A stretch of 16,804 nucleotides of DNA from Treponema sp. (GTDB taxonomy: Bacteria > Spirochaetota > Spirochaetia > Treponematales > Breznakiellaceae): positions 1 to 16,804 of the forward strand of contig WQZW01000003.1 of assembly GCA_009780545.1 (NCBI GenBank). Direction: 5' to 3'. Of this stretch, positions 1 to 14,183 are shown in pieces. A model generated the notes under the pieces. That model had not been told where the DNA came from, made no database searches, and worked only from the letters and a program-made list of their open reading frames with translations. A program made the translations under genes and the position numbers. Positions within the stretch are counted from its first letter, which is position 1; every line of letters starts with the position of its first letter.

Positions 1-249
1 AACATGGAACGGTTTGTCGGACAGAACCTGTCGGTCCTGCTTGAAGAGAAACTGCCCGACGATTCAGGCGGCCTGAAAACGGAAAATCTCTGGTTTGGAA
101 GGTTGTACTGCCAGGCCCCGGAAGTTGACGGCTCGGCGGTCTTTGTCGCTTCGGGCGGAGGGGCGGAAAAGGCCGGGGAATTCGTCGTCTGCAGGGTGAA
201 TGCACGAAGGGGATTTGACTTGGAAGTTGGTCCATCATCCGGAGGATGA
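1..249 (+). CDS. rimO: Ribosomal protein S12 methylthiotransferase RimO, C-terminal fragment
   Basis: 3' end of a gene that begins before the window; the frame is open from base 1 and stops at TGA 247-249. The 82 visible residues match the C-terminal TRAM-like RNA-binding domain of RimO: a GQNLSVLLEE strand, then FGRLYCQAPEVDG, the counterpart of the family's GR-x-QAPE(I/V)DG signature, then GEFVVCRVNARRGFDLEV, matching the closing G(D/E)-V-V-(A)-x-YDL strand. RimO is a radical-SAM [4Fe-4S] enzyme that adds a methylthio group to an aspartate of ribosomal protein S12; its catalytic domains lie upstream and cannot be checked. The last codons after FDLEV (GPSSGG) are not RimO-like. They are encoded by the first hairpin of a repeat (231-253), which also supplies the stop codon. 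MiaB or MtaB are less likely because APEVDG is RimO-specific. Confidence 0.85.
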   Translation, partial: NMERFVGQNLSVLLEEKLPDDSGGLKTENLWFGRLYCQAPEVDGSAVFVASGGGAEKAGEFVVCRVNARRGFDLEVGPSSGG

Positions 250-299
250 TGGACTGTGGAGAATTTCAAGCCTCCGGTAGGAGGGTTGAAATTCTCCAC
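231..299 (+). repeat. Composite double-hairpin repeat, copy A
   Basis: Two adjacent hairpins. H1 is a perfect 10-bp inverted repeat, TCCATCATCC (231-240), loop GGA, then GGATGATGGA (244-253). H2 has a perfect 14-bp outer stem (256-269 with 286-299) and, after a G/G mismatch, a 5-bp inner stem CCTCC/GGAGG (271-275, 280-284) around loop GGTA. An ACGGCATTGG tail follows. H1 overlaps the last codons and TGA of rimO. There is no uridine run after H2, so it is not a textbook terminator, although it could end or stabilise the transcript. Confidence 0.85.
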
Positions 300-422
300 G
301 GCATTGGTTGGTGATAAGTAAAACGTTACAGGTTTTTAAGTACCGTGGTGTCATCCAATTAATTATGGCTAAATTGCATAATCATTCACATAATCCAATT
401 CCTAAAATAAATATCCGACAAT
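250..422. other. Gap between the convergent rimO and DUF151 genes
   Basis: Apart from the second hairpin of copy A (256-299), this stretch is AT-rich (300-422) with no convincing ORF, tRNA or strong terminator. The two flanking genes converge here. Confidence 0.5.
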
Positions 423-1031
423 TCACCGTTCATTCAAAAAACCTGTCTTGTCCATGGCATTCATCATATCACGAAGTTTTGCGGCTTTCTCGTACTCCTC
501 CTTCTCCAGGGCCTTTTCCAACTGTTCGGCAAGGTTATTACATTTGTTTTCCAAAAACGATTTTTTCCCGCCAAAAATGTCTCCTTCACGATTTTGCTGG
601 AAGGCTTCGATAAAATAGTCGGCGGGAATGCCGCTTGTTTCGATAACCTCGGCGGCGACCAGGATGCGACATTTGCAGGAGGAGGCCATGGCAAGGGCAT
701 CGCCGGGGCCGCAATCTAACTGGATGTTCTTGCCGGTTTCCCGGTTATCGCCGATCACCAGTTTGGCATGGTAGGTATTGTCCTTGATGTCGTAAATCTC
801 GATATGCTGAAGGCTTAGGTATTGGTTGTTGAGGAGGTCCAAAAGAAGGTTCTGCGTATTGGGTTTTTTGGGGGCTCGCCCTTCCAGCCCGACCAGTATT
901 GCCTCCACTTCGGACGGCAGGATAAAAATCGGTATGGCGATATCTTTTTTCGAGGTGCGGAGCAGGACCGCACTGCCTTCTTCCTTCGACTCGACAATCG
1001 TCCAGACCGAAACCTCGTGCATTTTTTTCAT
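423..1031 (-). CDS. Bifunctional nuclease family (DUF151) protein with C-terminal UVR motif
   Basis: Protein of 202 residues. The N-terminal ~140 residues are a DUF151/BFN domain (the fold of Thermotoga TM0160 and the plant BFN nucleases), recognised from IPIFILPSEVEAILVGLEG near the start and the downstream LDCGPGDALAMASSCKC helix. The C-terminal ~35 residues (LAEQLEKALEKEEYEKAAKLRD) are a UvrB/UvrC (UVR) helical-hairpin motif. DUF151-UVR fusions occur in many bacteria; nuclease activity is reported for some members, but the role in this lineage is unknown. I chose the ATG at 1031 because AAGGAAG precedes it by 5 nt; an in-frame ATG at 1052 would put that Shine-Dalgarno inside the gene. It lies 22 nt after the polyprenyl synthase stop, so the two are probably co-transcribed. 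The AT content looks higher than in the neighbouring genes. Confidence 0.88.
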   Translation of the reverse strand: MKKMHEVSVWTIVESKEEGSAVLLRTSKKDIAIPIFILPSEVEAILVGLEGRAPKKPNTQNLLLDLLNNQYLSLQHIEIYDIKDNTYHAKLVIGDNRETGKNIQLDCGPGDALAMASSCKCRILVAAEVIETSGIPADYFIEAFQQNREGDIFGGKKSFLENKCNNLAEQLEKALEKEEYEKAAKLRDMMNAMDKTGFLNER

Positions 1032-1053
1032 CGTGTCTTCCTTAAAATACAAG

Positions 1054-2142
1054 TTAGCGAATAAGATTCACCAAACCCGACAACCCCTTTTTTTCGTCAA
1101 CTCCGGTTCCCGTTCCAGGATCGGCATAGACGGCGGAAAAAACTTCCCCCGACATGGCAATAAACGATTCCGCCTGCGCCCGTGCCCGTTCGATCACGCC
1201 GGAAGCGGCAAGTTCCTCCATCAGTTCGGCGACTTCCGGGGCGGTAATACCGGCGGCCCGTGCCCCGGCAAAGCATCTGGCCACCATTTCTTTTTTTTCA
1301 GGCCGGTCGTTCAAAAGGAGAATCACCGGAAGGCTTTTCTTACCTTCGACAATATCGTCGCCAAGATTTTTTCCGACAATCCCCGTGCTAACGTTCTTGA
1401 CATCGTCAAGAATCTGAAAGCCGATTCCCAGTTTCTCGGCCGCCGTTCCCAGTTTTTCCGCAAGAACTTTCGCCCGATCCTGGGCAAGCTTTCCGGCAAA
1501 CAGGGCCGCCGTAACGCCAAGTTCGGCGGCAAACCGCGCAAGGCATCCGGTTTTGCGGGCGCACATCCTGAAGTAAAGATCGACCGAGGGAACAAGTTCC
1601 GGGTTGCGATGCCAATGAATGTCCATCGCCTGTCCCAAGTGCAGGTTCCGCATAAACAGGGCCCAAAGTCCGTAGACCCTTGCCTTCGCCGCGTCGCCAT
1701 TTCCGGTCCCAAACTTTTCCGCCCAGGAATCGATGCAGGCCGAGGCCAGGAAGTACAGAAAACTCCCGGAATTGATCGCCGCATCGGTGCCGTACAGCCT
1801 GTGCACCGCCGGCTTGCCCCGGCGCTCCTCGGACCCGTCCTCGATGTCGTCGTGAATCAGGCTCGCATTGTGGGAGAACTCGACCAAGGGCGTAAGCGGA
1901 AGGGCCGAATCCCCGCCGCCGAGGGCCTCGCAAACCAGGGTCATCAGCAAAGGCCGCCACCGTTTGCCTCCCCTGTCCAGCAAGTCCCGGCATGGATCAA
2001 GCAAGGGTCGCAAAAGCGGAACGTCGCCGACCTCGGCGAACACGGCTTTCGACCAAAAGGCATTGGCGGCCTCAGGCTTAGGCAGCCAGCGGTCGATTTC
2101 CTCCTCGATGTCCTTCAGTCTAAGGCTGTACTGCGGGTCCAC
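1054..2142 (-). CDS. Polyprenyl diphosphate synthase (trans-isoprenyl chain elongation)
   Basis: Makes a linear allylic polyprenyl diphosphate from isopentenyl diphosphate units, for quinone, glycan-carrier or other prenyl lipids; the chain length cannot be judged from motifs. The 362-residue protein shows the family order: GGKRWRP (about 58-64, IPP binding), the first aspartate-rich motif in SLIHDDIEDGSEERRGKP (DDIED at 98-102), GQAMDIHW (about 170), then GIGFQILDDVKN and GKNLGDDIVEGKKSLPVI. The second aspartate-rich motif reads DDVKN (246-250), with Asn in place of the usual last Asp; the first two Asp residues remain. I place the start at GTG 2142: TATACT ends 6 nt upstream, as at other starts here, and VDPQYSLRLKDIEEEIDRW looks like a normal N-terminus. 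An ATG at 2196 would add 18 residues and overlap rlmE, which is unlikely. Confidence 0.9.
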   Translation of the reverse strand: MDPQYSLRLKDIEEEIDRWLPKPEAANAFWSKAVFAEVGDVPLLRPLLDPCRDLLDRGGKRWRPLLMTLVCEALGGGDSALPLTPLVEFSHNASLIHDDIEDGSEERRGKPAVHRLYGTDAAINSGSFLYFLASACIDSWAEKFGTGNGDAAKARVYGLWALFMRNLHLGQAMDIHWHRNPELVPSVDLYFRMCARKTGCLARFAAELGVTAALFAGKLAQDRAKVLAEKLGTAAEKLGIGFQILDDVKNVSTGIVGKNLGDDIVEGKKSLPVILLLNDRPEKKEMVARCFAGARAAGITAPEVAELMEELAASGVIERARAQAESFIAMSGEVFSAVYADPGTGTGVDEKKGLSGLVNLIR

Positions 2143-2163
2143 TCCTGAAGTATATTGAAAAGC
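2127..2163 (+). promoter_or_regulatory. Promoter of rlmE, predicted leaderless
   Basis: TATATT (2151-2156) lies 7 nt before ATG 2164; there is no Shine-Dalgarno. The best -35 is weak, TGTACT at 2127-2132 with an 18-bp spacer. The -10 shares bases 2151-2154 with the opposing promoter, so the two operons cannot both load polymerase at once. Confidence 0.5.
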
Positions 2164-2177
2164 ATGGCGAATTACAA
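2143..2177 (-). promoter_or_regulatory. Promoter of the polyprenyl synthase-DUF151 operon, predicted leaderless
   Basis: On the minus strand TATACT (2154-2149) is preceded by TTGTAA (2177-2172, 4 of 6 to TTGACA) at a 17-bp spacing. Exactly 6 nt separate the -10 box from GTG 2142, so the expected +1 is the first base of the start codon. The box overlaps the rlmE -10 on the other strand. Confidence 0.6.
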
Positions 2178-2796
2178 GAAACCCGACAGTTGGCAACTGA
2201 AGGCCCGCAAGGAGGGTTACCCGGCCCGTTCCGTCTACAAGCTGCAGGAACTTGACGAAAAGTTCGCCCTGACCAAAGGCCCCCGGTCGCCCGGCCCGTT
2301 CCGCATCCTTGACCTGGGAGCCGCTCCCGGAAGCTGGAGCCTGTACCTGCTAAGGAAGATGGCCGGTTCGGCCAAGCCCGGCTTTCTCCTTGCCGCCGAT
2401 CTCTGCCCGCTTTCCCGCCGAACCGATGCCGGCCTTTTTGACGGCGAAAACTTCCGCTTCATCCAGGGCGACATCACCGATGCGGCAATCCGCGCCGCCA
2501 TCCTCGAACACGGCCCTTTCGACCTTATCGTCAGCGACGCGGCCCCGGCGACCATGGGCAACCGCTTCGTGGACACCTGCCGTTCGCTCGACCTCGCCGG
2601 CGAAGTCCTGGGCTATGCCGAAACCGCCCTGGCTCCCGGCGGCAAACTGGCCGTCAAAGTCTTTCAGGGCGGCGACACTTCCGAACTCCTGCGTCGCATG
2701 CGGACCCTCTTCAAGACCGCCAAGGCCCACAAGCCGGAAGCCTGCCGCAGCGAATCGTTCGAGACCTACTATCTGGGATTGGAAAGGAAGTCATAA
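2164..2796 (+). CDS. rlmE: 23S rRNA 2'-O-ribose uridine methyltransferase RlmE (FtsJ/RrmJ family)
   Basis: A 210-residue SAM-dependent methyltransferase, normal for the family, which 2'-O-methylates a uridine in the A-loop of 23S rRNA. The catalytic K-D-K-E tetrad is present: Lys26 in ARSVYKLQEL, Asp125 in LIVSDAAPATMG (SDMAPN in E. coli), Lys165 in GGKLAVKVFQGG, and Glu200 in KPEACRSESFETYYLG. Motif I is ILDLGAAPGSWS (48-59). A short insert, GPRSPGPF, precedes motif I. The start is ATG 2164; an upstream in-frame TTG at 2155 lies within the -10 box and is less likely. It is transcribed divergently from the polyprenyl synthase operon. The stop is followed within a few bases by repeat sequence. 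Confidence 0.93.
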   Translation: MANYKKPDSWQLKARKEGYPARSVYKLQELDEKFALTKGPRSPGPFRILDLGAAPGSWSLYLLRKMAGSAKPGFLLAADLCPLSRRTDAGLFDGENFRFIQGDITDAAIRAAILEHGPFDLIVSDAAPATMGNRFVDTCRSLDLAGEVLGYAETALAPGGKLAVKVFQGGDTSELLRRMRTLFKTAKAHKPEACRSESFETYYLGLERKS

Positions 2797-2850
2797 TGCG
2801 AAGCAAAGCTCCATCCGTTGATTCTTATAAATTATGCGGGGGCTAAGCCG

Positions 2851-2902
2851 ATCCAATCTGCCTTTGGCAGATTGGATTCGGAGTTTTGCTTCGCAAAACT
2901 CC
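2851..2902 (+). repeat. Composite double-hairpin repeat, copy C
   Basis: H1 is a perfect 12-bp stem, ATCCAATCTGCC (2851-2862), loop TTT, then GGCAGATTGGAT (2866-2877). After a 2-nt spacer, H2 is a perfect 10-bp stem, GGAGTTTTGC (2880-2889), loop TTC, then GCAAAACTCC (2893-2902), followed by ACCCGTTTATAATTATGC. The bases just before it (about 2800-2815) resemble a decayed right arm of another H2. Confidence 0.85.
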
Positions 2903-2920
2903 ACCCGTTTATAATTATGC

Positions 2921-2969
2921 GGGGGGCCAAGCCCCCCTGAGCCGGAGCCTTGCTACGCAAGTCTCCGGC
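2921..2969 (+). repeat. Composite double-hairpin repeat, adjacent GC-rich copy (C2)
   Basis: H1 is GGGGGGC (2921-2927), loop CAA, then GCCCCCC (2931-2937). A 3-nt spacer TGA follows. H2 is GCCGGAGCCTTGC (2941-2953), loop TAC, then GCAAGTCTCCGGC (2957-2969), with one C/T mismatch in 13 positions. It lies 18 bp after copy C, so the units are in tandem. Confidence 0.8.
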
Positions 2970-3198
2970 TACCCCCCGATCGGGGCGGCCAATGAATGCG
3001 CGCGCAGCGCGTGGATGAAAAAGGCTCCACGCCGAGAGCGCCAATAAAGGCGCCCAAGACGAAAAATGGCGCAAAGGCTTTAGCCTGAGCAGTGCGCGAC
3101 TGCCCCGCAACGCCCCGCAATTGCCGTCGGGCTTGGGTTGCGGGCCCTGGTCTTCAAACCAACCCTTTGATTCCCCTTGCCGAAACGGAGCGGCAATC

Positions 3199-3504
3199 TT
3201 ATGCGGAGTACAGGACTTTGCCGACACGGTCGATGTGATCCTTCAGTTCCGGATTTGAAAGATTCTCGTAGACTAAAACATCGACAAAATAAGGTATATC
3301 GGAATCCTCAAAATCATTTTTGATATTGAGTAAATCGGTGAAACTAAAACTGCCGCCGGTTTTAAGCGCCAAATCAATGTCGGAACCTCGGCGGTAATTC
3401 CCCTTCGCGCGGCTGCCGTAGATAACAACCTGCCGAATCCCCGCATATTTTTGGAATACCAAGCGAAGGAACTGCAATGTTTCGTCGGAAATCCCGTACG
3501 GCAT
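3199..3504 (-). CDS. mntA: MntA-type minimal nucleotidyltransferase antitoxin
   Basis: 101-residue minimal nucleotidyltransferase. VVIYGSRAKGNYRRGSDIDL carries the family signature GSx10DxD: Gly30-Ser31, then Asp42 and Asp44, which bind the catalytic metal. In the characterised HepT/MntA module the MntA protein neutralises the HEPN toxin by adding AMP to the tyrosine of its active-site motif. Its ATG at 3504 directly follows the last base of the hepT stop codon (TAA-ATG, no gap), so translation is probably coupled; GGAG lies in the hepT end just upstream. The base composition is less GC-rich than in the neighbours, suggesting transfer, as is common for such modules. The 3' end borders the repeat-filled gap. 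Confidence 0.88.
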   Translation of the reverse strand: MPYGISDETLQFLRLVFQKYAGIRQVVIYGSRAKGNYRRGSDIDLALKTGGSFSFTDLLNIKNDFEDSDIPYFVDVLVYENLSNPELKDHIDRVGKVLYSA

Positions 3505-3912
3505 TTATTCCAGCGTCTCCATTTTTTGTTCCAGTGCCGCGAACGCATCGTAAAAATCGCCGGTGATAAACGCAAGCACCATTTGGGCGGTGGTTTCATC
3601 ATAGGTATGAGATGAAATGTTACGGCTTTTTACCATTTCCATCCAGATTTGTTCGTTTTCGAGAATGCCATTACTGAAAGCATGCCGAATGGCGTTCTTG
3701 CTGCCAATAATACCGGCGATTCCCTGCTCCTCAAGATAATCCTTCATCATATTCCAGGCCAGTTCAAAGGTAAATTCGAAGCTTTTCACCGCTCCCTGTT
3801 TTTCAAGGGCGCTTAGTTCGCGGGACTTTGCAAGCTCGACGGCATGTTTCACCGTGGTAAGGGCTTTTTTGTAATTCCTAAAACGCTGTTTCCAGCGAAT
3901 ATCTTTGTTCAT
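3505..3912 (-). CDS. hepT: HepT-type HEPN toxin (HI0074-family nucleotidyltransferase substrate-binding protein)
   Basis: 135-residue all-helical protein of the HI0074/TIGR01987 family, typified by KSFEFTFELAWNMMKDYLEEQG (43-64). RNISSHTY at 97-104 is an exact Rx4HxY HEPN ribonuclease motif (Arg97, His102, Tyr104), so the toxin active site looks intact and Tyr104 would be the residue AMPylated by the partner. I take ATG 3912 as start. A GTG at 3933 is also in frame, but it lies upstream of the TATACT box that ends 6 nt before the ATG, so it would precede the likely transcription start. Toxin first and antitoxin second is the order found in the characterised hepT-mntA operon. Confidence 0.88.
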   Translation of the reverse strand: MNKDIRWKQRFRNYKKALTTVKHAVELAKSRELSALEKQGAVKSFEFTFELAWNMMKDYLEEQGIAGIIGSKNAIRHAFSNGILENEQIWMEMVKSRNISSHTYDETTAQMVLAFITGDFYDAFAALEQKMETLE

Positions 3913-3947
3913 AGGGTGAGTATATGCCGGCACTGTTCGTTTGTCTA
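3913..3947 (-). promoter_or_regulatory. Promoter of hepT-mntA, predicted leaderless
   Basis: Minus strand: TAGACA (3947-3942, 5 of 6), a 17-bp spacer, TATACT (3924-3919), then exactly 6 nt to ATG 3912. No Shine-Dalgarno lies between box and start. This is the best -35/-10 pair among the predicted leaderless starts in the window. Confidence 0.65.
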
Positions 3948-4068
3948 TGCGCCAAGTAACGGCACGATGAAGGTAGGGGACACCGGATAAGGCGGCGCAG
4001 GTTGATGCATGGGGGAGCGGGACCGAAGCCCAGTATCAATCACTATACCGCCATCCAACATCCTTTTA

Positions 4069-5043
4069 CTACATTTTCCCCTTAGCCGCACAAAATAGAA
4101 AACAATCCTTGCCGTTGATTTTTAGGGGGAAATGCTCGCGGGAAAAACCTTGCGATTCCAGGGCCGGAAGGATAATTTCCGGCAGGGAGGCGAGGAAGAC
4201 AAGGCTGCCGGCCGGGCGGAGAATTCGGGCGGCTTCGGCGATGAAACGGGGGTAAAAATCCTCGGCCCGGATTTGCCGGAAGTGGCCCCATGGCGGGTCG
4301 GTAATGACGGCATCGACCGTGCCGGTTTCCAGCGGCAGTTTCAGCCCGTCCCACTTTTGCACCGTACAGTTCTTCGCTTTGGTCAAACGCCGCTTTTGCA
4401 ATGCCACGCAGTCTGAATCCATGTCGCCTGAATGGATTTTTCGGCAAAGGCCGTTTTCGACAAGCATCGCCGCAATCGCGCCGGATCCGCCGAAGGGATC
4501 GACCGCAAGGGAATCCCCGCCGACATTTGCCAGGTGGATCATCGCCGCAACGATGTCCGGTCGAAGTTCGCCCTGGTTCAAGGCCTTGTCGAAAGCCGCA
4601 TGTTTGCGGAGGCGCAGCATGAAATAAACCGAATTGTCGTTCCTGCGGTTCAGCCAAACCTCGACGTCCGGTTTCGACCGGTTCGGTTTGAGACCGGTTT
4701 GTCGGGAAACTTCCTTTTCGATCCTGCCCATCAGGTCAGGCGGAATCGCGCGGAGCTTTCCGCAGTCCATCACCACAATCCGGAAAGTCCTTCCCCCGAT
4801 CTCGGTTCCCCGAAGTGACGGAATCTTTTCGGCGATGTGCCGGGCGGCGTCGAGAATGTTCGCCGAGGAAAAATCATCCAGCACCATAAAAAGATTGTTG
4901 ATACATTTGCTGTTCGGTTCGTCCCGGCAACGAAACAGGAGGGCACCTTCGAGCGGGGAAATATCCCCGGCACCGAAAGTTTTAAGTATTTTGGCAACAA
5001 TCCGCTCGAGGCCGAAATTGACGCTGGCATACCATAGCTGCAT
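4069..5043 (-). CDS. THUMP-domain class I RNA methyltransferase (UPF0020/Trm14-RlmL-like)
   Basis: 324 residues. The N-terminal half contains a THUMP-like RNA-binding region (about 50-146, including the FRIVVMDCGKL strand and DVEVWLNRR). The C-terminal half is a Rossmann methyltransferase with GELRPDIVAAMIHLA (158-172), SAM motif I VDPFGGSGAI (181-190), GDMDSDCVALQKRRL (acidic loop), and the N-methyltransferase motif TDPPWG (248-253). DPPWG/NPPYG motifs in THUMP proteins methylate guanosine N2 in tRNA or 23S rRNA, so an m2G activity is the best guess; the exact RNA and position cannot be read from sequence. The start is ATG 5043, 6 nt after a TATACT box; an upstream ATG at 5082 would start within the repeat. 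It stands alone, with no close partner on its strand. Confidence 0.85.
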   Translation of the reverse strand: MQLWYASVNFGLERIVAKILKTFGAGDISPLEGALLFRCRDEPNSKCINNLFMVLDDFSSANILDAARHIAEKIPSLRGTEIGGRTFRIVVMDCGKLRAIPPDLMGRIEKEVSRQTGLKPNRSKPDVEVWLNRRNDNSVYFMLRLRKHAAFDKALNQGELRPDIVAAMIHLANVGGDSLAVDPFGGSGAIAAMLVENGLCRKIHSGDMDSDCVALQKRRLTKAKNCTVQKWDGLKLPLETGTVDAVITDPPWGHFRQIRAEDFYPRFIAEAARILRPAGSLVFLASLPEIILPALESQGFSREHFPLKINGKDCFLFCAAKGKM

Positions 5044-5078
5044 GGACTCAGTATACCATCGAGATTGCCGGATGTACA
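5044..5078 (-). promoter_or_regulatory. Promoter of the THUMP methyltransferase gene, predicted leaderless
   Basis: Minus strand: TGTACA (5078-5073, 4 of 6), 17-bp spacer, TATACT (5055-5050), 6 nt, ATG 5043. The -35 lies inside the left arm of the first hairpin of repeat copy B, so the repeat may have contributed part of this promoter. Confidence 0.55.
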
Positions 5079-5124
5079 TCATCCAAAGGATGATGTACTA
5101 AGGAGATTTGCAAAGCAAATCTCC
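5074..5124 (+). repeat. Composite double-hairpin repeat, copy B
   Basis: H1 is a perfect 11-bp stem, GTACATCATCC (5074-5084), loop AAA, then GGATGATGTAC (5088-5098). After a 3-nt spacer TAA, H2 is a perfect 10-bp stem, GGAGATTTGC (5102-5111), loop AAA, then GCAAATCTCC (5115-5124), followed by ACGCCTTTATT. It sits between the methyltransferase start and the end of the feo operon. Confidence 0.85.
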
Positions 5125-5176
5125 ACGCCTTTATTTACAGTTTCTTATTGGCTACTATTGAGTAATTCCGAAGGGT

Positions 5177-5377
5177 TTAATGCGGGATTTTGTGCTCCTT
5201 GATCACCCTGAGGATTTCCGGGGAGCAGCATTTTTTGCGCGGACTCAGTTCGGCACAGCGGCCCACGGTGCAGGCGTTCGTCGCCTTCCGTATTTCGTCC
5301 AACGTTGTCGCTCCGTTGTCAATAGCCTTGATAATATCGTCTTTCGAGACATCGGAACAATAGCAGATCGTTTCCAT
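5177..5377 (-). CDS. BFD-like [2Fe-2S]-binding protein, third gene of the feo operon
   Basis: 66-residue protein with six cysteines: Cys5 and Cys7 (CYC), Cys36 and Cys41 (ACTVGRC), and Cys50-Cys51. The helical part DDIIKAIDNGATTLDEIRKAT is typical of the BFD (bacterioferritin-associated ferredoxin) fold, which binds a [2Fe-2S] cluster through a CxC pair and two later cysteines. Here the second pair is spaced C-x4-C rather than the classical C-x2-C, and the extra CC may take part instead. AGGAG, overlapping the feoB stop codon, lies 7 nt before the ATG, so it belongs to the operon. Its place after feoB suggests an iron-responsive or electron-transfer role in ferrous iron uptake or storage release; this is inference. 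It is not a FeoC winged-helix protein. Confidence 0.82.
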   Translation of the reverse strand: METICYCSDVSKDDIIKAIDNGATTLDEIRKATNACTVGRCAELSPRKKCCSPEILRVIKEHKIPH

Positions 5378-5387
5378 GGTTTAACTC

Positions 5388-7460: not shown

Positions 7461-7693
7461 GGACGGGCCTCCGCCACTTCGACCTCGATGCCCGAAGCCT
7501 CCGAACGCCGGATGAGAATGCCGTACCCCCGGATGCGGACATGTAGGGGCCCGCGAAAAAATCCCTTGCGCAAAACGACGCCCTCCGCGCCTTCGGTAAA
7601 GCCCATGTCGGCAAGCCGCCGCCCGACTTCCTTGTCCCAGACAACCCTTGCGACCCTAAAATCCGTCCCACTCGATATATCGGAAAGAAGCAT
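7457..7693 (-). CDS. feoA: Ferrous iron transport protein A (FeoA)
   Basis: 78-residue SH3-like protein, the usual size for FeoA, with the hallmark RRLADMGFTEGAEGVVLRKG and the closing RGYGILIRRSEASGIEVE strands. FeoA is a small cytoplasmic partner needed for FeoB function. The ATG at 7693 is preceded by GGAGGAG within 2-8 nt. The open frame extends much further upstream, but that part overlaps the promoter and the divergent TPR gene and is not translated. The transcript should start about 25 nt upstream from a consensus promoter. Confidence 0.93.
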   Translation of the reverse strand: MLLSDISSGTDFRVARVVWDKEVGRRLADMGFTEGAEGVVLRKGFFRGPLHVRIRGYGILIRRSEASGIEVEVAEARP

Positions 7694-7707
7694 AACTCCT
7701 CCAAATT

Positions 7708-7725
7708 TGTTAGTCTGTAATAACA
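7708..7725. promoter_or_regulatory. Candidate metalloregulator operator at the feo start site
   Basis: Inverted repeat TGTTA-8 nt-TAACA (7708-7712, 7721-7725) spans the predicted feoA transcription start and touches the -10 box, the right place for a repressor of the DtxR/TroR or Fur type. The arms are only 5 bp and AT-rich, so this is suggestive only. Confidence 0.3.
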
Positions 7726-7753
7726 TTATAGATAATCCCCGGCGTTTTGTCAA
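7725..7753 (-). promoter_or_regulatory. Consensus sigma-70 promoter of feoAB
   Basis: Minus strand: perfect TTGACA (7753-7748), 17-bp spacer, perfect TATAAT (7730-7725). The expected start near 7718 gives a leader of about 25 nt with a GGAGGAG Shine-Dalgarno. A promoter this strong for an iron importer implies repression. Confidence 0.8.
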
Positions 7754-7911
7754 GTACCCATGACGATTCCGGGCCGTTCGCAAGTCGGAAGGGGACACGC
7801 CAAGATGGTTACTCTGGAACCGGCATCTTTCTTCCGATAATCTATAGAGTAAAACCACCCAACTAGAGGAGGAGGGACTTGGGAGATTTGCGCTTGTCGT
7901 CAAATGTGTGA

Positions 7912-7962
7912 AGTTTTGCAAAGCAAAACTCCTAAATCCAATCTGCCGGAGGCGGATCGGAT
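7912..7962 (-). repeat. Composite double-hairpin repeat, copy F, opposite orientation
   Basis: Read on the minus strand, H1 comes first (7962-7936): 12-nt arms around a 3-nt loop, with one A/C mismatch and one G-T wobble. After a short spacer H2 follows (7932-7911): stem AGTTTTGC/GCAAAACT around a 3-nt loop (7920-7922). The arms are nearly the same as in copy C (2851-2902). It lies between two divergent gene starts (feoA and the TPR gene), so it cannot simply be a terminator for a neighbour. Confidence 0.75.
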
Positions 7963-7989
7963 CATCTTCTATTACGGCCGTTATTGTTA

Positions 7990-7995
7990 TATATT
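7990..7995 (+). promoter_or_regulatory. Candidate -10 box for the TPR operon
   Basis: TATATT about 37 nt before ATG 8033, in a short AT-rich patch. No good -35 is seen at 16-18 bp, so confidence is low. Confidence 0.3.
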
Positions 7996-8032
7996 GGAGG
8001 TGCCCGATTAAAAATGTAGGTACGGAGGGAAT

Positions 8033-9226
8033 ATGAAAAAGCTTTTTCTTGTGGTGATTTTCTCGCTGGGTACCGGCATGGCGTTCGGGCAGTCGGCCTT
8101 CGCCCGGGCGGAGGAACTGTTCATGCAGAACAAGCCGGCGGACAGCCGCGCGTACCTGGAACAGGCCTTGGCCGAGGATCCGTCGAACATCGTCGCCGGG
8201 CTGTACCTGGGCATAGTTTACGAGCAACTGGGGCTTCTCGAGGAGGCTTCGGCCCTGTATTTGGAGCTGATCGAGCGTGCGGGGAATCTCGGGGCGACGG
8301 TTGCCAATAACCTGGGCAACGTGTTCTTCCGGATGGGCGATTTCGAGCGGGCGAAGGATTTCTACTCGCAGGCCATAGGACTTGACCGGGCTTTGGCCCA
8401 GGCAAGGTTGGGAAGGGCCAACGCCTTCCTTCAGAAAGAGGAGTTCGACTCGGCGATCCTCGATTACGAGCAGTACTTGGCCCTTGCGGCCGATTCGGCG
8501 CAGCGGGATTCCATCGAGCGGCTTTTGCAGAGCCTTCGGATGGGAGCCGAGCAGCGGGCCATGGAGGAACAGGCCGCCCGGGATGCGGAACTTCAGCGGT
8601 TGTCCGAGGAGCAGCTTCGGCAATTGCAGTTCATCTCCGCACAGCTTGCCTCGATGATGGCGGAACGTCAGCAGAACGAGGCGGGGAACGCCGCACGGCT
8701 TGCCGACCTTGAGGCGGAAAAGCTCCGCCAGGAAGAACGGCTGGCCGAGATACGGGAGGAAGTCAGGCGGCAGGCCGGAGACGGGTATGCCGAGATCGGC
8801 GATGCCGAACAGCAGAACCTGACACGCGAGGTTTCAAAGCTCGACGCGGAACGGCAGGCGGCCATAGACGAGGAGATCGCCCGGATTCGGGCCGAGACCG
8901 CCCGGCTCGACGCGGCCCATGCCGAGCAGCTTGCCGGAATCTACGCCGAGATGCAGCGGATGGCCGATACCCAGGAAGCGATGTTCGCCATGCTCGGGGA
9001 TACGGTTGCCGGGCAGATTGCCGAACAGATGGCCCTGTATCAGCAGTTCGGGAGCGAGCGGCAGCAACTGCTCGACGAGGAAATGGGCAGGCTTGATGCC
9101 GAAAGGCGAAGGCTTTTGAACGAAGACATTGCGGCCTCGCTTAGGGCGGCGGCCGAAAGAAGCAGGGGACTCTCCACCGGGCCCGAGGGCATCGAGGAAT
9201 TCAAAGGGGAGTTCGAGCTTGAATAG
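8033..9226 (+). CDS. Exported TPR / coiled-coil protein
   Basis: 397 residues. Residues 1-19 (MKKLFLVVIFSLGTGMAFG) form a Sec signal peptide with a probable signal-peptidase-I cut before Gln20; there is no lipobox cysteine. Residues about 20-170 contain three to four TPR units (ARAEELFMQNKPADSRAYLE, VANNLGNVFFRMGDFERAKD, and so on). From about 175 to 375 the protein is a long charged coiled coil rich in Glu, Gln, Arg and Ala. GGAGG lies 4-5 nt before the ATG. The following TPR gene starts 15 nt after its stop, so the two are co-transcribed and probably act together at the periplasmic face of the inner membrane. TPR domains bind proteins; the actual partner and function are unknown to me. Confidence 0.85.
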   Translation: MKKLFLVVIFSLGTGMAFGQSAFARAEELFMQNKPADSRAYLEQALAEDPSNIVAGLYLGIVYEQLGLLEEASALYLELIERAGNLGATVANNLGNVFFRMGDFERAKDFYSQAIGLDRALAQARLGRANAFLQKEEFDSAILDYEQYLALAADSAQRDSIERLLQSLRMGAEQRAMEEQAARDAELQRLSEEQLRQLQFISAQLASMMAERQQNEAGNAARLADLEAEKLRQEERLAEIREEVRRQAGDGYAEIGDAEQQNLTREVSKLDAERQAAIDEEIARIRAETARLDAAHAEQLAGIYAEMQRMADTQEAMFAMLGDTVAGQIAEQMALYQQFGSERQQLLDEEMGRLDAERRRLLNEDIAASLRAAAERSRGLSTGPEGIEEFKGEFELE

Positions 9227-9241
9227 CCGCCGAGTGGCGGC
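9226..9241 (+). promoter_or_regulatory. Small GC hairpin at the junction of the two TPR genes
   Basis: GCCGCC (9226-9231), loop GAGT, GGCGGC (9236-9241) starts at the last base of the upstream stop codon and ends one base before the next ATG (9242). There is no Shine-Dalgarno in the gap. Translation of the downstream gene may need terminating ribosomes to melt this stem. Confidence 0.45.
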
Positions 9242-12200
9242 ATGGGGGAAATTTTGGACCGAAATCGCAGAAAAAAGATTGCCGTTGCCGTAATCGCCAT
9301 ACTCGCTCTGATGGCCGGAGGAACTACGCTGCTCCTCCTGGGCCGGCAGGGCGGGGAACCGGCCGAGGACCCGAAGATTCAGGCCAACCGGATGGTGGCG
9401 GACGACGACTTCTGGCTTGCCCTGGATTTCCTCGACGGCCTTATCGACAACGGCGGCGACCCGGGCCTGCTCGCCTTCCGCCGGGAGCTTATCTGGCAGC
9501 GGATGGTCCGTTCCGGCGATTTCGACCAGTTGCTCGACCATATCCGCGAGCTGCTCGCGGGCAATCCGGCGGACCCCGAATCGCAATACCTGGAACGTTG
9601 GGTGCAGACCGAGCAACTTTTGGACTCAGGCGATTTCGAGCAGGCCAGGAATTCCCTTCAGGGGCCGACGGCCCGCGAGCCGGAGAACCGGGAACTCCGC
9701 GAACTGCAGGAAAGGGTAACCGCCGAACAGATGCTGGCATCCGGCGACTTTGACGGCACGATGGAATACCTCAACCGCATCCTTGCCGACCGTTCCGACA
9801 GCCTCCTCCTTCAGCAATTGCGGAGCCGCATCCTCCAGGACCGGCTTGCCGCCGTCGAAGACCCGACATCGACACTTGCCCTCATCGACAGCCTCCTTGA
9901 AGGCGATCCGACAAATCCCCGGCTTCTGGCCCTGCGGCAGGAAGCCCTGGCACGCCTGGCCCTGCTTGACGGCGATGCGGAACGGGCGTCGGAACTCCTG
10001 GAGGACCTCCTGCGGGACGATCCGGCCAATCCCCGGCTTCTGGCCCTGCGGCAGGAGGCCCTGGCACGTCTGGCGCTGCTTGACGGCGACGCGGAACAGG
10101 CACTTGCTCTCGTGGACGGGCTTCTGCGGGACGATCCGGAGAACCCACGACTTTTGGCCCTGAGAGAGGAAGCCCTGCGACAGGCCATAGCCTCGGGCGA
10201 GCCGGAGCGGGCCTTGGCCCATATCGAGGGCCTGCTTGAGAACGACCCGGAGAACCCGGAATTGCTGGCCTTGAGGCGGGAAGCCTTGGCACGGCAGGCG
10301 ATTGCCGGCGGTAACCAGGACGAGGCATTGGCCCTCATCGATGATCTTTTGCGGGACGACCCGGAGAACCCGGAGCTTTTGGCCCTGAGGCAGGAAGCCC
10401 TTGCGCGTCAGGCGATTGCCTCCGGTGCCCGGGGTGAGGCTCTCGGGATCATCGACGGGCTTCTTCAGAACGATCCGGAAAATCCGGAACTTCTCGCGCT
10501 GAAGCAGGAAGCCCTGGTGCGGGAGGCGATTGCCGCCGGCAATCAGGATGAGGCCTTGGCCCTTGTGGACGAACTTTTGCGGAACGATCCCGGCAACCCG
10601 GAACTCTTGGCCTTGAGGCAGGAAGCCTTGGCACGACAGGCCGTTGCCTCAGGCGATCCGGAGCGGGCCTTGGCCCTTGTGGACGAACTCCTGCGGAACG
10701 ATCCGGACAACCCGGAACTGTTGGCTTTGAGGCAGGAAGCCTTGGACGGTCAGGCCGTTGCCGCGGCCGAGGCCGAAAAAAGGGCCGCAGCCGAAACGGC
10801 GGCGGCTGCTGCGGCTGCTGCCGAAGCCGAAAGAAGGGCTACGGAAACGGCTGCAGCGGCGGCGGCCGAAGCTGCCAGAAAGGCCGCGGCCGAGACGGCT
10901 GCTGCCGCGGCGGCCGAGGCTGCCAGAAGAACTGCGGCCGAAGCCGCGGCGGCTACGGAAAATGCCAGGCTTGCCGAGGAAAAACAGGCCCTGATGCGGG
11001 AGATCACGGGGATGGTAACCCGGGGGCGGGAGCACCTGAAACGGGGGGAAGTGGCCCAGGCGGAAACCGTTTTCGGGCAGGCACTTGCCCGCATACCGGC
11101 CGGCGAGGGTCGTTTTGCGGCGGAAAAGATGGGCGAAATGGCCGAAGGCTGGCTTGACCTTGCCCAGGCAAAGGCCGGCGAGCAGATTGGGACCGACGCG
11201 CTGCGCAAGGCCGAGGAAATGGCCCGGCGGGCGATTGCCGGCGACCGGACCGTTGCCGCCCCGCACTTCGTCCTGGGCATGGTCAGCCAGGAACGCGGTC
11301 AGACGAACGATGCCATCACCCACTTCAACGATGCCGTCCGTCTTGACGGGAACAATTACCTGTACTTCTTCAACCTGGGCAGGAGCTACTTCCTTGCCCG
11401 GCGTTTCCCCAATGCGCGGGAGGCCTTCTCCCGGTCGGTCGAGCTGTCCCCGAACTTCGCCCTGGGCTGGTACAACCTCGGGGGAACGCTTTCCAATCTC
11501 GGCCTGCAGGATCAGGCGCTTACCGCCCATCGCCGCGCCGTCGCCATCAGGCCGGATTACGCCCTTGCCCACAGGGAGATCGGGCGGATTCTTGCCGCCG
11601 GAGGCCAGACCACGGCGGCGATAACTTCCTTTAATACCGCCCTGCGATCCAATCCCTCGGACCTTACCACGCTGCGGGAACTGGGCATAGCCCAGAACCG
11701 GGCCGGCAATCTCAATGCGGCGGCAGATACCTTCCGCCGTGCGTTAAGTATCGCTCCGGACGATGCCCAGATAAACTACAACATGGCCGTGGTCCAACTG
11801 GAACTGGGCAGTAACGAGGCACTTGCCTTTGCCAGAAGGGCCGACGAGATCAGCCCGGACAATTCCCTGTATCAGTTCACCCTGGGCCTTGCCTTGGAAA
11901 GATCCGGCAATTCGGTCCTCGCCGCCACCGCCTACCGGCGGGCGATCGCGCTTGACGCATCGGCCCTTTCCCCCCGAATCAACCTGGGCAGCATCCTCAT
12001 CGCCGACGGGGATTTCAGGCAGGCGCTTGATATCCTTACCCGCGCGTACTCGCTGGCTCCGACCAACTTCGAGGTGAACAACAATCTCGGGGCCGTCCAT
12101 GCCAACATGGGCAATTGGACCGACAGCATCACTCACTACGAAAAGGCCATCGCCGCCCAACCGTCCAACGCCATGGTCCAACTGAACCTGGCGCGGGCCT

Positions 12201-12415
12201 ACAGCGGCGCCGGCAACCTGGAACGGGCCGAGGCCGCCTACCGGGCGGTGTTGAAGCTGGACGGAGATAACTGGGATGCGATGTTCGAGCTTGGGAAAAC
12301 CTTTGTCGGCATGGGACGGGACGACGAGGCCAGGCACTATCTGAGCGAGCTGATCAACCGCAACGCTTCCCATTCCAGCCGGTCCGAGGCGGAACGGATA
12401 TTGGCAAGCCTGTAG
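9242..12415 (+). CDS. Large membrane-anchored TPR protein with Ala-rich coiled coil
   Basis: 1057 residues. A short basic N-terminus (MGEILDRNRRKK) precedes one transmembrane helix (about 13-33), so the bulk should lie in the periplasm. Residues about 40-224 hold diverged helical repeats. Residues 225-489 are seven near-identical 38-residue units (unit 3 has 37) of the form NPELLALRQEALARQ...LVDELLRNDPE, with an eighth partial unit. Residues 505-573 are an Ala/Glu/Lys-rich helix resembling the spacer helix of TolA. Residues about 590-1057 are roughly 11 canonical 34-residue TPRs (for example NALGWYNLGGTLSNLGLQDQALTAHRRAVAIRP without the first residue, split at about 730-760). TPR arrays act as protein scaffolds; the layout suggests an envelope-spanning scaffold. 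I do not recognise a named gene. It lies between an exported TPR protein and an AI-2E-family permease in one operon. Confidence 0.88.
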   Translation: MGEILDRNRRKKIAVAVIAILALMAGGTTLLLLGRQGGEPAEDPKIQANRMVADDDFWLALDFLDGLIDNGGDPGLLAFRRELIWQRMVRSGDFDQLLDHIRELLAGNPADPESQYLERWVQTEQLLDSGDFEQARNSLQGPTAREPENRELRELQERVTAEQMLASGDFDGTMEYLNRILADRSDSLLLQQLRSRILQDRLAAVEDPTSTLALIDSLLEGDPTNPRLLALRQEALARLALLDGDAERASELLEDLLRDDPANPRLLALRQEALARLALLDGDAEQALALVDGLLRDDPENPRLLALREEALRQAIASGEPERALAHIEGLLENDPENPELLALRREALARQAIAGGNQDEALALIDDLLRDDPENPELLALRQEALARQAIASGARGEALGIIDGLLQNDPENPELLALKQEALVREAIAAGNQDEALALVDELLRNDPGNPELLALRQEALARQAVASGDPERALALVDELLRNDPDNPELLALRQEALDGQAVAAAEAEKRAAAETAAAAAAAAEAERRATETAAAAAAEAARKAAAETAAAAAAEAARRTAAEAAAATENARLAEEKQALMREITGMVTRGREHLKRGEVAQAETVFGQALARIPAGEGRFAAEKMGEMAEGWLDLAQAKAGEQIGTDALRKAEEMARRAIAGDRTVAAPHFVLGMVSQERGQTNDAITHFNDAVRLDGNNYLYFFNLGRSYFLARRFPNAREAFSRSVELSPNFALGWYNLGGTLSNLGLQDQALTAHRRAVAIRPDYALAHREIGRILAAGGQTTAAITSFNTALRSNPSDLTTLRELGIAQNRAGNLNAAADTFRRALSIAPDDAQINYNMAVVQLELGSNEALAFARRADEISPDNSLYQFTLGLALERSGNSVLAATAYRRAIALDASALSPRINLGSILIADGDFRQALDILTRAYSLAPTNFEVNNNLGAVHANMGNWTDSITHYEKAIAAQPSNAMVQLNLARAYSGAGNLERAEAAYRAVLKLDGDNWDAMFELGKTFVGMGRDDEARHYLSELINRNASHSSRSEAERILASL
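9914..10750 (+). repeat. In-gene tandem repeat of 114 bp (7 units plus a partial)
   Basis: Each unit encodes 38 residues and starts at the codon of an NP(R/E)LLAL motif: 9914, 10028, 10142, then (after a 111-bp unit) 10253, 10367, 10481, 10595 and partial 10709. Units are much alike at the base level, particularly the CTGGCC-CTGCGGCAGGA-type block, which points to recent duplication or gene conversion and to likely copy-number variation between strains. Confidence 0.85.
10754..10960 (+). repeat. In-gene Ala-rich low-complexity repeat
   Basis: Short imperfect repeats of GCC/GCG/GCT-rich codons encode AAAETAAAAAA-AEAARK-type blocks of about 20-22 residues, forming an extended charged Ala-rich helix between the two TPR regions. 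Confidence 0.75.
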
Positions 12416-12434
12416 AATCTTGGTAGGATCCGGT

Positions 12435-13583
12435 ATGAGCGACCTGCAAAGCCAAGGGCACGACCCGAACTCCTCAAGGTATCGCATCCAGAGCTACATT
12501 CTCGGGGCGATGCTCGTCCTCCTGCTGATCGCCGTCCTCCGGCTTTTTGCCCCGTTTTTCACCTTTCTTCTTTGGTCCATCCTTCTGTACGTCATCGTCA
12601 ATCCCCTGTACCGGCGGGTTATCAGAAATATAGACGAAAAAACGTTCCGGGGGATGGTCCTGCACAAGTTCTGGGCGCTGGCCTTTACCATAGTAACGAT
12701 GGCCCTGATCTACGTTCCGGTGTTCCTTGTGATGATGGCGTTTATCAGGCAGGCGATGGGAATGGTCCAGGGATTGATGGAGGTGGTAACGCAGCGGCCG
12801 GAGTTCCTCAGCGATATTTACGGATGGCTTGCCGACGCGATTCGGAGCATTTCCTTCGACCAGATCGTCGTTACCGCCGACGAGATCGACCGCTACGTTA
12901 GGGATTTCCTGTTGAGGCAACGGAACAACATCCTGGGACTTGGAACCAACATCGTTATCAACATCGGCACATTCTCGCTGGCGATGATCATCTATACGTT
13001 GATAATGGTGTTTTCACTGTTCTTTCTTTTTTCCGACGGCCCGTACCTGTCCAGGCTGTTCCTCCATGCCATTCCGATACGCAACGAGTACATGCCCACC
13101 CTGACGGCAAAGTTCCAGGACATTACCCGCAACCTCTTCCTCGGCTACATCATGGTCGCCCTGACGCAGTCGATCCTGGCCTTCGTCCTGTTTACCATTT
13201 TTAAGATAAACGGCACATTGGTTTTCGCCGTCATCACCTTCATTCTGGTCTTCATCCCGATGATAGGCCCGCTGACCATCTGGCTGCCCCTGGGAATCAT
13301 CATGATCGCGGGCGGCGACATCGGCAGGGGAATCCTGTTCATGTCGCTCTGCGCGATTTTCATCTCCGGCACCGAAAATATCCTTCGCCCGATTTTCCTC
13401 AAGGACCGTATCAAGCTCCATCCCTTGATAATCCTTTTTTCGATCCTCGGCGGCCTCGTGGTCTTCGGTTTCAACGGCCTTATCCTCGGCCCCATGCTGG
13501 TGATCTTTTTCCTCACCGTGCTGGACTTGTTCCTTACCGAACATCGGATTAATCAGCAGGATGGTCCATCAGCCGAGGGCTGA
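12435..13583 (+). CDS. AI-2E / PerM-family inner-membrane permease
   Basis: 382 residues, about eight transmembrane helices, matching the AI-2E family transporter domain (PF01594, formerly UPF0118). N-terminal hydrophobic pair AMLVLLLIAVLRLFAPFF and FLLWSILLYVIVNPLYRR; a large soluble middle loop (about 100-180); then the conserved C-terminal LHPLIILFSILGGLVVFGF-NGLILGP signature. Members include the AI-2 exporter TqsA and Na+/H+ antiporters, so the substrate cannot be assigned here. ATG 12435 is chosen because TAGGA lies about 6 nt upstream; a TTG at 12420 is in frame but has nothing before it. It begins 19 nt after the TPR stop and is the last gene of the operon. The C-terminal tail DGPSAEG and the stop codon are encoded by the first hairpin of repeat copy D. 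Confidence 0.9.
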   Translation: MSDLQSQGHDPNSSRYRIQSYILGAMLVLLLIAVLRLFAPFFTFLLWSILLYVIVNPLYRRVIRNIDEKTFRGMVLHKFWALAFTIVTMALIYVPVFLVMMAFIRQAMGMVQGLMEVVTQRPEFLSDIYGWLADAIRSISFDQIVVTADEIDRYVRDFLLRQRNNILGLGTNIVINIGTFSLAMIIYTLIMVFSLFFLFSDGPYLSRLFLHAIPIRNEYMPTLTAKFQDITRNLFLGYIMVALTQSILAFVLFTIFKINGTLVFAVITFILVFIPMIGPLTIWLPLGIIMIAGGDIGRGILFMSLCAIFISGTENILRPIFLKDRIKLHPLIILFSILGGLVVFGFNGLILGPMLVIFFLTVLDLFLTEHRINQQDGPSAEG

Positions 13584-13630
13584 TGGACTCGGGAGAAATT
13601 CCATCCTCCTTCGGAGGATGGAATTTCTCC
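13565..13630 (+). repeat. Composite double-hairpin repeat, copy D
   Basis: H1 is a perfect 10-bp stem, TCCATCAGCC (13565-13574), loop GAG, then GGCTGATGGA (13578-13587); it contains the permease stop codon (13581-13583). After a 4-nt spacer, H2 is a perfect 18-bp stem (13592-13609 with 13613-13630), loop TTC, beginning GGAG and ending CTCC. An ACGCATTTACTG tail follows. It is the longest perfect H2 in the window. Confidence 0.88.
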
Positions 13631-13675
13631 ACGCATTTACTGTTTGGCGGTAGGTCGGTTAGCAGTAGGGGGTGG

Positions 13676-13725
13676 TCCATCAACCGAGGGCTGATGGACC
13701 CGGGAGTTTTGGTTTTGTCGGAACT
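13676..13725 (+). repeat. Composite double-hairpin repeat, copy E, decayed
   Basis: H1 TCCATCAACC (13676-13685), loop GAG, GGCTGATGGA (13689-13698) pairs at 9 of 10 positions and differs from copy D by one base. H2 (about 13703-13725) is decayed: only the outer GGAGTT and AACTC parts pair. The tail ACGCATTGGTTG matches copy A better than copy D. It lies 111 bp after copy D. Confidence 0.7.
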
Positions 13726-13799
13726 CTACGCATTGGTTGTTATGTGCAATATCAGCCTAAAATTATTGAATAATACTTGAGTAATATTTAAATAATTAT

Positions 13800-13848
13800 G
13801 GCTCTAGACCATCATCTCCCCATGGAGGATGATGGTCTAGAGCCTTTT
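13800..13848 (+). terminator. Long hairpin followed by TTTT, terminator-like
   Basis: Perfect 17-bp stem (13800-13816 with 13828-13844), extendable past a 1-nt bulge by a TCC/GGA pairing, followed by TTTTC on the plus strand. It could end transcripts from the TPR-permease operon, about 220 nt past its stop. The arm holds the same CCATCATC core as H1 of other repeats, so it may be a repeat relic. Confidence 0.5.
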
Positions 13849-13880
13849 CATAAAAAACTCCAAATATGCGTTCCGTTCAT

Positions 13881-13917
13881 TAAGGATGATCATCATTTTT
13901 CTGACTGATCATCCTTA
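13881..13917. repeat. 12-bp perfect inverted repeat
   Basis: TAAGGATGATCA (13881-13892) and TGATCATCCTTA (13906-13917) around a 13-nt loop. The GGATGAT core is shared with the hairpin repeats of copies A and B, but the loop is longer than their 3 nt. Confidence 0.65.
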
Positions 13918-14017
13918 CTTATCGGAAATTCGTCCTATTTCGAGTATAGTGTATGTGGTTTTGAAAATCTAGGTCCGTGAAGCAAGGGGATTCCGGCAGT
14001 GTGACAACTTTCGGGGG

Positions 14018-14041
14018 CAATGGATTGCTGCGTTGCGCTCG
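14018..14041 (+). repeat. Short stretch resembling a common dispersed bacterial repeat
   Basis: The stretch containing GGATTGCTGCGTTGCGCTCG resembles the short GC-rich extragenic element seen in many copies in various bacterial genomes. Only one copy is in this window, so the assignment rests on memory of the pattern. Confidence 0.3.
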
Positions 14042-14080
14042 TATGGCGATTCCGGTTGAGCTCCGGCGTTTGATTGTACT

Positions 14081-14183
14081 CGGAGGGTACATATCCCGCC
14101 CTTTAGGGCGTTTAAAGGGTATGTACTCTCCGAAAATCACCTTACCGCAACAACATACCCCGCCATTCATGGCGGGGTTGTTG
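14081..14183 (-). repeat. Double-hairpin element after the RCC1 gene, copy H
   Basis: Read on the minus strand, H1 (14183-14148) has a perfect 10-bp inner stem ACCCCGCCAT/ATGGCGGGGT with loop GA, extended by CAACAA/TTGTTG across a 3-nt bulge. It begins 1 nt after the RCC1 stop codon. About 15 nt further, H2 (14132-14081) has CGGAG/CTCCG ends, a long imperfect stem including GTACAT/ATGTAC, and an inner CGCCCT/AGGGCG hairpin. The H1-H2 order and the GGAG/CTCC ends agree with the other copies, but the loops and spacer differ. Confidence 0.6.

Follow-up and report, generated by a model that had tools for sequence, protein, structure and literature searches.

A REP-like family of paired hairpin repeats in Treponema, with stems probably kept matched by template switching at replication

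The closest described counterparts of the repeats reported here are the GTAG and CGTC super-families of repetitive extragenic palindromic (REP) sequences, presented in passages of Di Nocera et al. (2013; PMC3733652) as short intergenic palindromes with alternative complementary stem bases and short loops, also found as dimers. Some of these REPs overlap gene ends and supply stop codons, and CGTC families occur in Spirochaetes, apparently without a dedicated transposase (same passages of PMC3733652). We describe a family of non-coding repeats found in a 16.8-kb stretch of Treponema-like DNA (the window), each consisting of a hairpin (H1), a short spacer and a second, unlike hairpin (H2) that typically opens with GGAG and closes with CTCC. 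H1-H2 repeats are carried by bacteria of the termite-gut Treponema group and are typical of the family in which the nearest relative found is placed; their stems were probably created, and are probably kept paired, mainly by template switching during replication.

Like the REPs of that account, H1-H2 elements are short, dispersed and intergenic, with short loops, paired stem changes, overlap with gene ends and the supply of stop codons. They differ in joining two unlike hairpins in a fixed head-to-tail order, 2-3 nt apart; head-to-tail dimers are, in the part of PMC3733652 drawn on here, absent, under-represented or negligible in most REP families. G.T pairs, often seen in GTAG repeats according to the same part, are rare in H1-H2. 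Membership of the GTAG super-family was rejected on the unpaired tag, the GGAG foot being paired with CTCC, and on Y1 transposase linkage; membership of the CGTC super-family was rejected on size, the H1-H2 core having a 10-bp stem and a 3-nt loop against the 8-9 bp and 4-5 nt of the CGTC type. CGTC was not among the 25 commonest 4-nt tails or the 20 commonest spacers, no scan aimed at a CGTC end having been made. Despite both failed memberships the working likeness to REPs remains, and the family is a real, widespread, REP-like one. Bacterial interspersed mosaic elements (BIMEs) and REPINs consist of REPs in opposite orientation. H1 and H2 are near-perfect palindromes of differing sequence, so that their relative orientation is undefined. 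REPtrons and TnpA-REP, as outlined in sections of PMC8266576, share with H1-H2 hairpin DNA with a tetranucleotide at its foot; H1-H2 lacks the Y1 association and the unpaired GTAG. The double-hairpin elements of Allomyces mitochondrial DNA and the repetitive hairpin elements of sponge mitochondrial DNA (excerpts of PMC2800124) likewise show neighbouring hairpins, intergenic spread and suspected mobility, and complementary substitutions between two hairpin types are mentioned there for sponges, but H1-H2 lies on bacterial chromosomes, has a conserved GGAG core and differs in sequence.

Template switching between inverted repeats is described, in portions of PMC8794818 and PMC8604942, as making perfect stems in one step, homogenising arms and inverting loops. 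What those portions treat as a mutation process at quasi-palindromes seems here to act repeatedly on a dispersed repeat family. We infer that a DNA polymerase switching template inside a hairpin would copy one arm from the other and so leave the stem paired; the same event could invert the loop, and could also recruit host sequence beside the element as one arm, the first, of a newly formed H1.

The window holds 11 strong hairpins (10 at a score of at least 10), against at most 3 (at most 1 at that score) in each of 20 dinucleotide shuffles, and the pattern GTNCATCANCCNNNGGNTGATGNACNNNGGAG (H1, spacer, GGAG) matches at 230, 5074, 13564 and 13675 and in none of 200 shuffles. Both results confirm the double-hairpin plan that a preliminary description of this DNA, made from its letters alone, had reported. 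Six of the eight places listed there follow the plan, four as clean and two as decayed copies; 2921-2969 is only a related composite, and 14081-14183 was ruled out as a member, consisting of two long hairpins about 15 nt apart with the GGAG-like one first on the plus strand. Loops are 3 nt in the clean copies, as had been said of most loops, except for 4 nt in the H2 at 258. The features are as follows.

230..254, plus strand: copy 1, H1, GTCCATCATCC-GGA-GGATGATGGAC; holds the TGA stop (247-249) of the upstream TRAM-domain frame
258..297, plus strand: copy 1, H2, GGAG...CTCC, stem of 18 pairs, one of them mismatched, and loop of 4 nt; ACGG follows; clean copy
2851..2877, plus strand: copy 2, H1, ATCCAATCTGCC-TTT-GGCAGATTGGAT; 54 nt 3' of the stop of the FtsJ-like gene
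2880..2902, plus strand: copy 2, H2, GGAGTTTTGC-TTC-GCAAAACTCC, which is the core found in relatives; followed by ACCC; clean copy
2921..2966, no strand assigned: composite related to the family but not a clean copy; GC hairpin of 7 bp, spacer of 6 nt, then a GGAG hairpin with a single mismatch
5074..5098, plus strand: copy 3, H1, GTACATCATCC-AAA-GGATGATGTAC
5102..5124, plus strand: copy 3, H2, GGAGATTTGC-AAA-GCAAATCTCC; followed by ACGC; clean copy
7936..7962, minus strand: copy 4, H1, inverted and decayed, with one G.T and one C.A pair
7910..7932, minus strand: copy 4, H2, GGAGTTTTGC-TTT-GCAAAACTTC; one G.T
13564..13588, plus strand: copy 5, H1, GTCCATCAGCC-GAG-GGCTGATGGAC; provides the AI-2E gene with its TGA stop (13581-13583)
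13592..13630, plus strand: copy 5, H2, perfect 18-bp GGAG...CTCC hairpin, TTC loop; followed by ACGC; clean copy
13675..13699, plus strand: copy 6, H1, GTCCATCAACC-GAG-GGCTGATGGAC; one A.C mismatch
13703..13727, plus strand: copy 6, H2, degenerate, with GGAG retained and the opposite arm eroded, pairing in part by G.T; followed by ACGCATTGG

Copy 4 (7910-7962, minus strand) keeps the plan but carries single-arm changes. The composite at 2921-2966 resembles pieces of a AAGACTTGC composite in genomes G001 and G051.

The exact pattern of the window's H1 plus GGAG had no match in genome contigs or in viral contigs, and the H2 core, GGAGTTTTGCNNNGCAAAACTCC (GGAGTTTTGC-NNN-GCAAAACTCC), was therefore searched for in relatives instead. 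All genome-scale results rest on relatives of the source, an uncultured Treponema (G-numbered genomes, L-numbered loci). The nearest locus found in the genome collection, L001, belongs to Treponema sp. Lab288P1bin34 (whole genome G001), at 70% identity over the best segment. Of 195 genomes in G001's family, 58 contain the exact core and none a reversed control pattern; of 392 genomes drawn across the phylum, four contain the core: G001, G067 and G147, which are also on the family list, and G422, which is not. It is dispersed within genomes, with 30 copies in G051, 29 in G155, 26 in G001, 22 in G194 and 17 in G127; four genomes thus hold 22-30 exact cores, and 48 of the 58 positive genomes hold fewer than five. 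In G422, outside the listed family, three cores lie 69 bp apart (G422:C48:4592-4752).

The plan and its direction hold beyond the window. An element-blind sample of 40 G001 contigs (482,937 bases) contained 21 GGAG...CTCC sites, of which 16 had a hairpin immediately upstream on a single strand (one of the 16 lies nested inside another) and none was flanked by hairpins left and right; no such site was present in 12 non-Treponema loci (180,922 bases). Among 199 distinct GGAG or GAAG hairpin sites, from loci mostly chosen for the core, H1 was found on one strand at 139, on both at 5 and on neither at 55, and the spacer was 2 or 3 nt in 137 of 150 oriented elements. H2 is more conserved than H1, whose sequence is particular to a lineage and varies by genome (GGCCAANNNGCC in G001, AAGACTTGCCGCC in G051, GCTGAA... 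in G155), and AC follows H2 in most genomes, G155 excepted. Copies in relatives therefore keep the H1-spacer-H2 layout on which the preliminary description had staked the reality of the family.

The two arms of these stems change together. The least biased test of this used a pattern that left pairs 7-9 of the G001 H1 free and allowed two mismatches elsewhere. It returned 63 G001 H1 copies from fetched stretches, with Watson-Crick pairs at pair 7 in 58, at pair 8 in 60 and at pair 9 in 62; pair 7 is AT in 15, GC in 9, TA in 22, CG in 12 and mismatched in 5, and there is no G.T at pairs 7 or 8 and one T.G at pair 9. In the 38-nt H2 of G001 (22 sequences, 17 distinct rows), 13 of 17 pairs are changed on both sides and none on one side, with 28 double-changed cells and no one-sided cell; covariation is 0.312 against 0.049 in shuffles that leave the relatedness of copies in place (0/500 on all five measures), and slid controls reach at most 0.063. 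Across 20 aligned G001 H1-H2 elements (18 distinct rows), 99.5% of cells pair, covariation is 0.117 against 0.021 shuffled (0/500), pair 7 is CG in 7, AU in 4, GC in 4 and UA in 3, and 16 cells are double-changed and one is one-sided. Stem length can change in concert as well, G155 having GAAGCC, GAAAGCC and GAAAACC with matching partners. The compensatory change proposed from the window is thus borne out beyond shuffled and slid controls.

Loops occur in both directions. With orientation set by the partner hairpin, and counting genomes with four or more 3-nt loops, the reverse complement of a loop was present in the same genome for 59 of 92 H1 and 58 of 81 H2 copies; reversed controls gave 2 and 7, and complemented controls 19 and 21, the latter inflated because in loops such as TTT/AAA or AGA/TCT the complement equals the reverse complement. 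At L306 the copies at +983 and +1163 have the same H1 and H2 arms and a right flank identical at 44 of 45 positions (left, 22 of 40), with loops GGA and TCC. A strict two-flank rule for comparing copies gave one pair, with a one-sided change, and a one-flank rule gave 35 close pairs, among which changes on two arms were seen in L073/L085, L174 and L240/L241. In L073/L085 the left flank matches at 32 of 33 positions (right, 22 of 45) and two H1 pairs are changed on both sides. Two-arm changes and loop-only inversion between copies with such close flanks point to a local process, and inverted loops together with concerted multi-base arm changes are what a template-switch product would be expected to show.

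Several copies sit at gene 3' ends, where the origin of H1 can be followed. The H1 at 230 and that at 13564 both give the upstream frame an ending G-P-S-x-x-G-stop. In the source species (P0001, P0002) the AI-2E protein ends INQQDGPSAEG, while of ten other AI-2E relatives P0003, P0006 and P0013 finish with INQQD and two more residues, and P0012 and P0015 do nearly the same; the element appears, from these ends, to have replaced the last codons and stop of the AI-2E gene. Downstream of AI-2E many relatives have an ACT-domain gene, followed in L009 by a DUF711 gene. Among 17 loci where the end of the ACT gene was read, two (L003 and L009) carry H1-H2 at the stop, and six (L007, L008, L011, L013, L016 and L022) show what seems to be a common next gene within about 30 nt of the stop. 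The remaining nine differ downstream and say nothing on this point, apart from L002, where the element is missing and the flank preserved. The ACT-gene end spells R-(I/V/L)-stop in 17 of 17 loci, the 5' arm of H1 starts with its last codons (AGG ATT TAG in L003, CGC GTT TAA in L009), and the flank that follows is nearly alike in element-free L002 (TTTAATTAAAATAC) and in L009 (TTTAATAAAATAC). At L003 and L009 the simplest reading is that the first H1 arm was host sequence already and that the second was newly made from it as an inverted copy. Frames of at least 100 codons, some of which may be spurious, end near 33 of 150 elements, with the stop inside H1 in 13. One idea, which we hold only tentatively and think rather unlikely, is that a mobile GGAG hairpin arriving near a gene end builds its partner there: the host 3' end would snap back, copy its own last 10-20 nt and continue into the GGAG hairpin, so that H1 would be a molecular copy of the target. 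If this were true, the double hairpin would be the signature of a self-primed, template-switching insertion without a dedicated transposase. The suggestion made from the window that one arm may be copied from the other gains support from the two-arm changes, the recurrence of loops and the host-derived H1 arm.

A number of observations weigh against template switching as the explanation. No H1 loop inversion was seen in G051 (0/16) or G127 (0/4), the 35 close pairs also include one-arm changes (L080, L082, L231, L242 and others), and most G051 copies examined keep an uncorrected C.C or C.T at H1 pair 9. At 55 of the 199 GGAG or GAAG sites the script found no H1. In the 20-element G001 set H2 is invariant, and two of the five measures fail against shuffles (two both-side pairs, 361/500; six further pair types, 185/500), because only two pairs vary freely there. 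Since the copies are related, the counts are not independent events, and no dated parent-child pair is among them. The hairpin finder behind both G001 alignments and the spacer, loop and mismatch counts penalises mismatches and so inflates pairing percentages; the G.T to A.C comparison below should be unaffected, as is the 63-copy pattern test. An H1 made from host DNA is backed at two loci only; the H1 of the window and of G001 is a repeated module brought along with the element, and the host-derived H1 may thus be one route among several. Finally, the one Y1 gene of G051 and the 11 Y1 matches each in G097 and G127 mean that Y1 may play a role in some genomes.

The alternative that survives best, although we consider it unlikely, is selection on RNA: the hairpins would act in transcripts, in 3'-end protection, processing or termination, and one-arm mutations would be rescued by compensatory ones. 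An RNA role is supposed for many REPs (PMC3733652, in part), several H1-H2 elements are found where a gene ends or immediately 3' of a tRNA gene, and elements fall inside long open reading frames (ORFs) less often than random placements do. By crude ORF calls, 1 of 4 in the window is inside a long ORF against 78% of random placements, 34% of 56 in G001 against 82%, 48% of 21 in G051 against 79% and 42% of 19 in G155 against 74%; all four sets thus lie mostly outside genes, yet 34-48% of copies in the three genomes overlap a called ORF. For 22 elements from G001 and the window, classified by similarly crude calls, orientation to the adjoining genes showed no preference (8/5/5/4), which argues against action in transcripts; orientation and gene position had been named beforehand as worth charting. 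RNA selection tolerates G-U on the transcribed strand. G.T pairs are indeed present in the decayed copies at 13703-13727 and 7910-7932, but among 56 mismatched pairs (Watson-Crick, 3513) G.T accounts for 8 and A.C for 12, and G-U steps are almost lacking from the double-changed sets (28 double to 0 one-sided cells, and 16 to 1). Nor do the elements resemble intrinsic terminators: a T-tract (at least 6 T in the 9 nt after H2) followed 0 of 100, T-runs after H1 not being counted. Loop inversion, too, is left unexplained by selection on RNA. The structured-RNA candidate of the preliminary description thus does poorly as the cause of the covariation, though the elements may still have a role as RNA.

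Quite improbable, in our judgement, is that the stems represent old independent subfamilies that exchanged modules by recombination, the arms never having copied each other within an element. The G001 loci L071 and L234, with a left flank identical at 40 of 40 positions, do carry H2 of 23 or 38 nt, and the intergenic regions of G001 combine several hairpin modules in mosaic form. Against module exchange speak the two-arm changes beside a 32/33 left flank (L073/L085), the inversion of the loop alone beside a 44/45 right flank (L306) and the H1 arm that is host coding sequence (L003, L009).

The transposase search was confined to PF01797 (Y1) matches, and draft genomes may miss genes. Y1 matches occur in 119 of the 195 family genomes, but core and Y1 are unrelated (both in 38, core only in 20, Y1 only in 81, neither in 56; Fisher p = 0.43, Spearman rho 0.004). 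Ten genomes have five or more cores, and Y1 matches are lacking from five of these (G001, G155, G173, G192 and G194, with 5-29 cores), G155 and G194 again having none in a second check, and 20 of 29 genomes with at least 10 Y1 matches lack the core. Fetched Y1 loci, with flanks of up to about 1.5 kb, contained elements in 0 of 49 and 2 of 27 (2 of 76), both in element-rich G127; G051, a single contig of 4.65 Mb, has one Y1 gene, with no element in its fetched locus (L351). That H1-H2 elements are classical REPs or BIMEs, non-autonomous and moved as single-stranded hairpins by a Y1 (RAYT/TnpA-REP) transposase, as the preliminary description had entertained, is therefore very improbable, for all that they are short intergenic palindromes in paired form with a GGAG foot, since that foot is paired inside the stem and is not an unpaired GTAG. 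The likeliest routes to new sites would be template-switch insertion or mobilisation by a transposase other than the Y1 type searched. Separately, nine genomes of the family (G047-G050, G063, G065, G079, G083 and G084) each have at least 21 Y1 matches and no exact H2 core, expansions of interest in themselves.

Other observations concern the surroundings of the repeats. In G051 (for example L307:560-900) the double hairpin is part of a composite, dispersed and about 330 bp long, which also matches itself on the opposite strand. Within this composite is a long hairpin; one copy read has it near-perfect, another eroded. In G001 a second module (L067, L068, L069, L073, L077) has a terminator-like hairpin whose stem differs widely yet stays paired, between conserved flanks (AACCTAAAA or ACATAAAA before; TTTTT...CTATAGAA or similar, plus AGCGGCC, after); it is possibly the most extreme case of the process acting on the H1-H2 stems. 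A tRNA scan of 13 sources, partly picked for a tRNA-like look, placed an element directly 3' of a tRNA gene (Ser or Thr) in L137, L138, L143 and L167, and a tRNA gene within about 300 nt of an element in L136, L148 and L154.

The best matches of the window's AI-2E protein are metagenome proteins and Treponema metagenome-assembled genomes. By Pfam the window encodes a TRAM-domain end, a bifunctional nuclease, a polyprenyl synthetase, an FtsJ-like methyltransferase, a nucleotidyltransferase with a substrate-binding partner, an RMKL-like methyltransferase, BFD, FeoB, two TPR proteins, an AI-2E transporter and RCC1 repeats. The nucleotidyltransferase gene (3199-3933, minus strand) adjoins an NTase-substrate-binding/HepT-like gene, a putative toxin-antitoxin-like pair. 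A large RCC1-repeat protein is encoded at 14185-16494 (minus strand), and an apparent second RCC1-type gene end, seen by eye at 16690-16804, is cut by the contig edge. An imperfect, terminator-like 21-pair palindrome at 13800-13844, followed by TTTT, contains GATGATGG as in the window's H1. Rfam gave no match over the gathering cut-off in the window and tRNA only in 13 relative loci; there were just three sub-threshold matches, in one repeat-rich coding stretch. A phage collection yielded 9 records with short, weak matches only (E 2 or more). In open-licence literature searched for Treponema or termite palindromic repeats, for template switching with REPs and for the H2 letters, the family was absent by title and abstract among the matches listed.

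Covariation is usually taken as proof of RNA function. The H1-H2 repeats form a large natural set in which covarying stems go with inverted loops and next to no G-U intermediates, the combination that would be expected of DNA replication making one arm from its partner. If that is what happens, template switching would be measurable in nature, and searches for RNA motifs would be warned of false covariation. The repeats also pose a testable question, namely how a REP-like repeat spreads without a Y1 transposase, and, if their arms are copied at replication, they would be a natural record of the birth and upkeep of hairpins.

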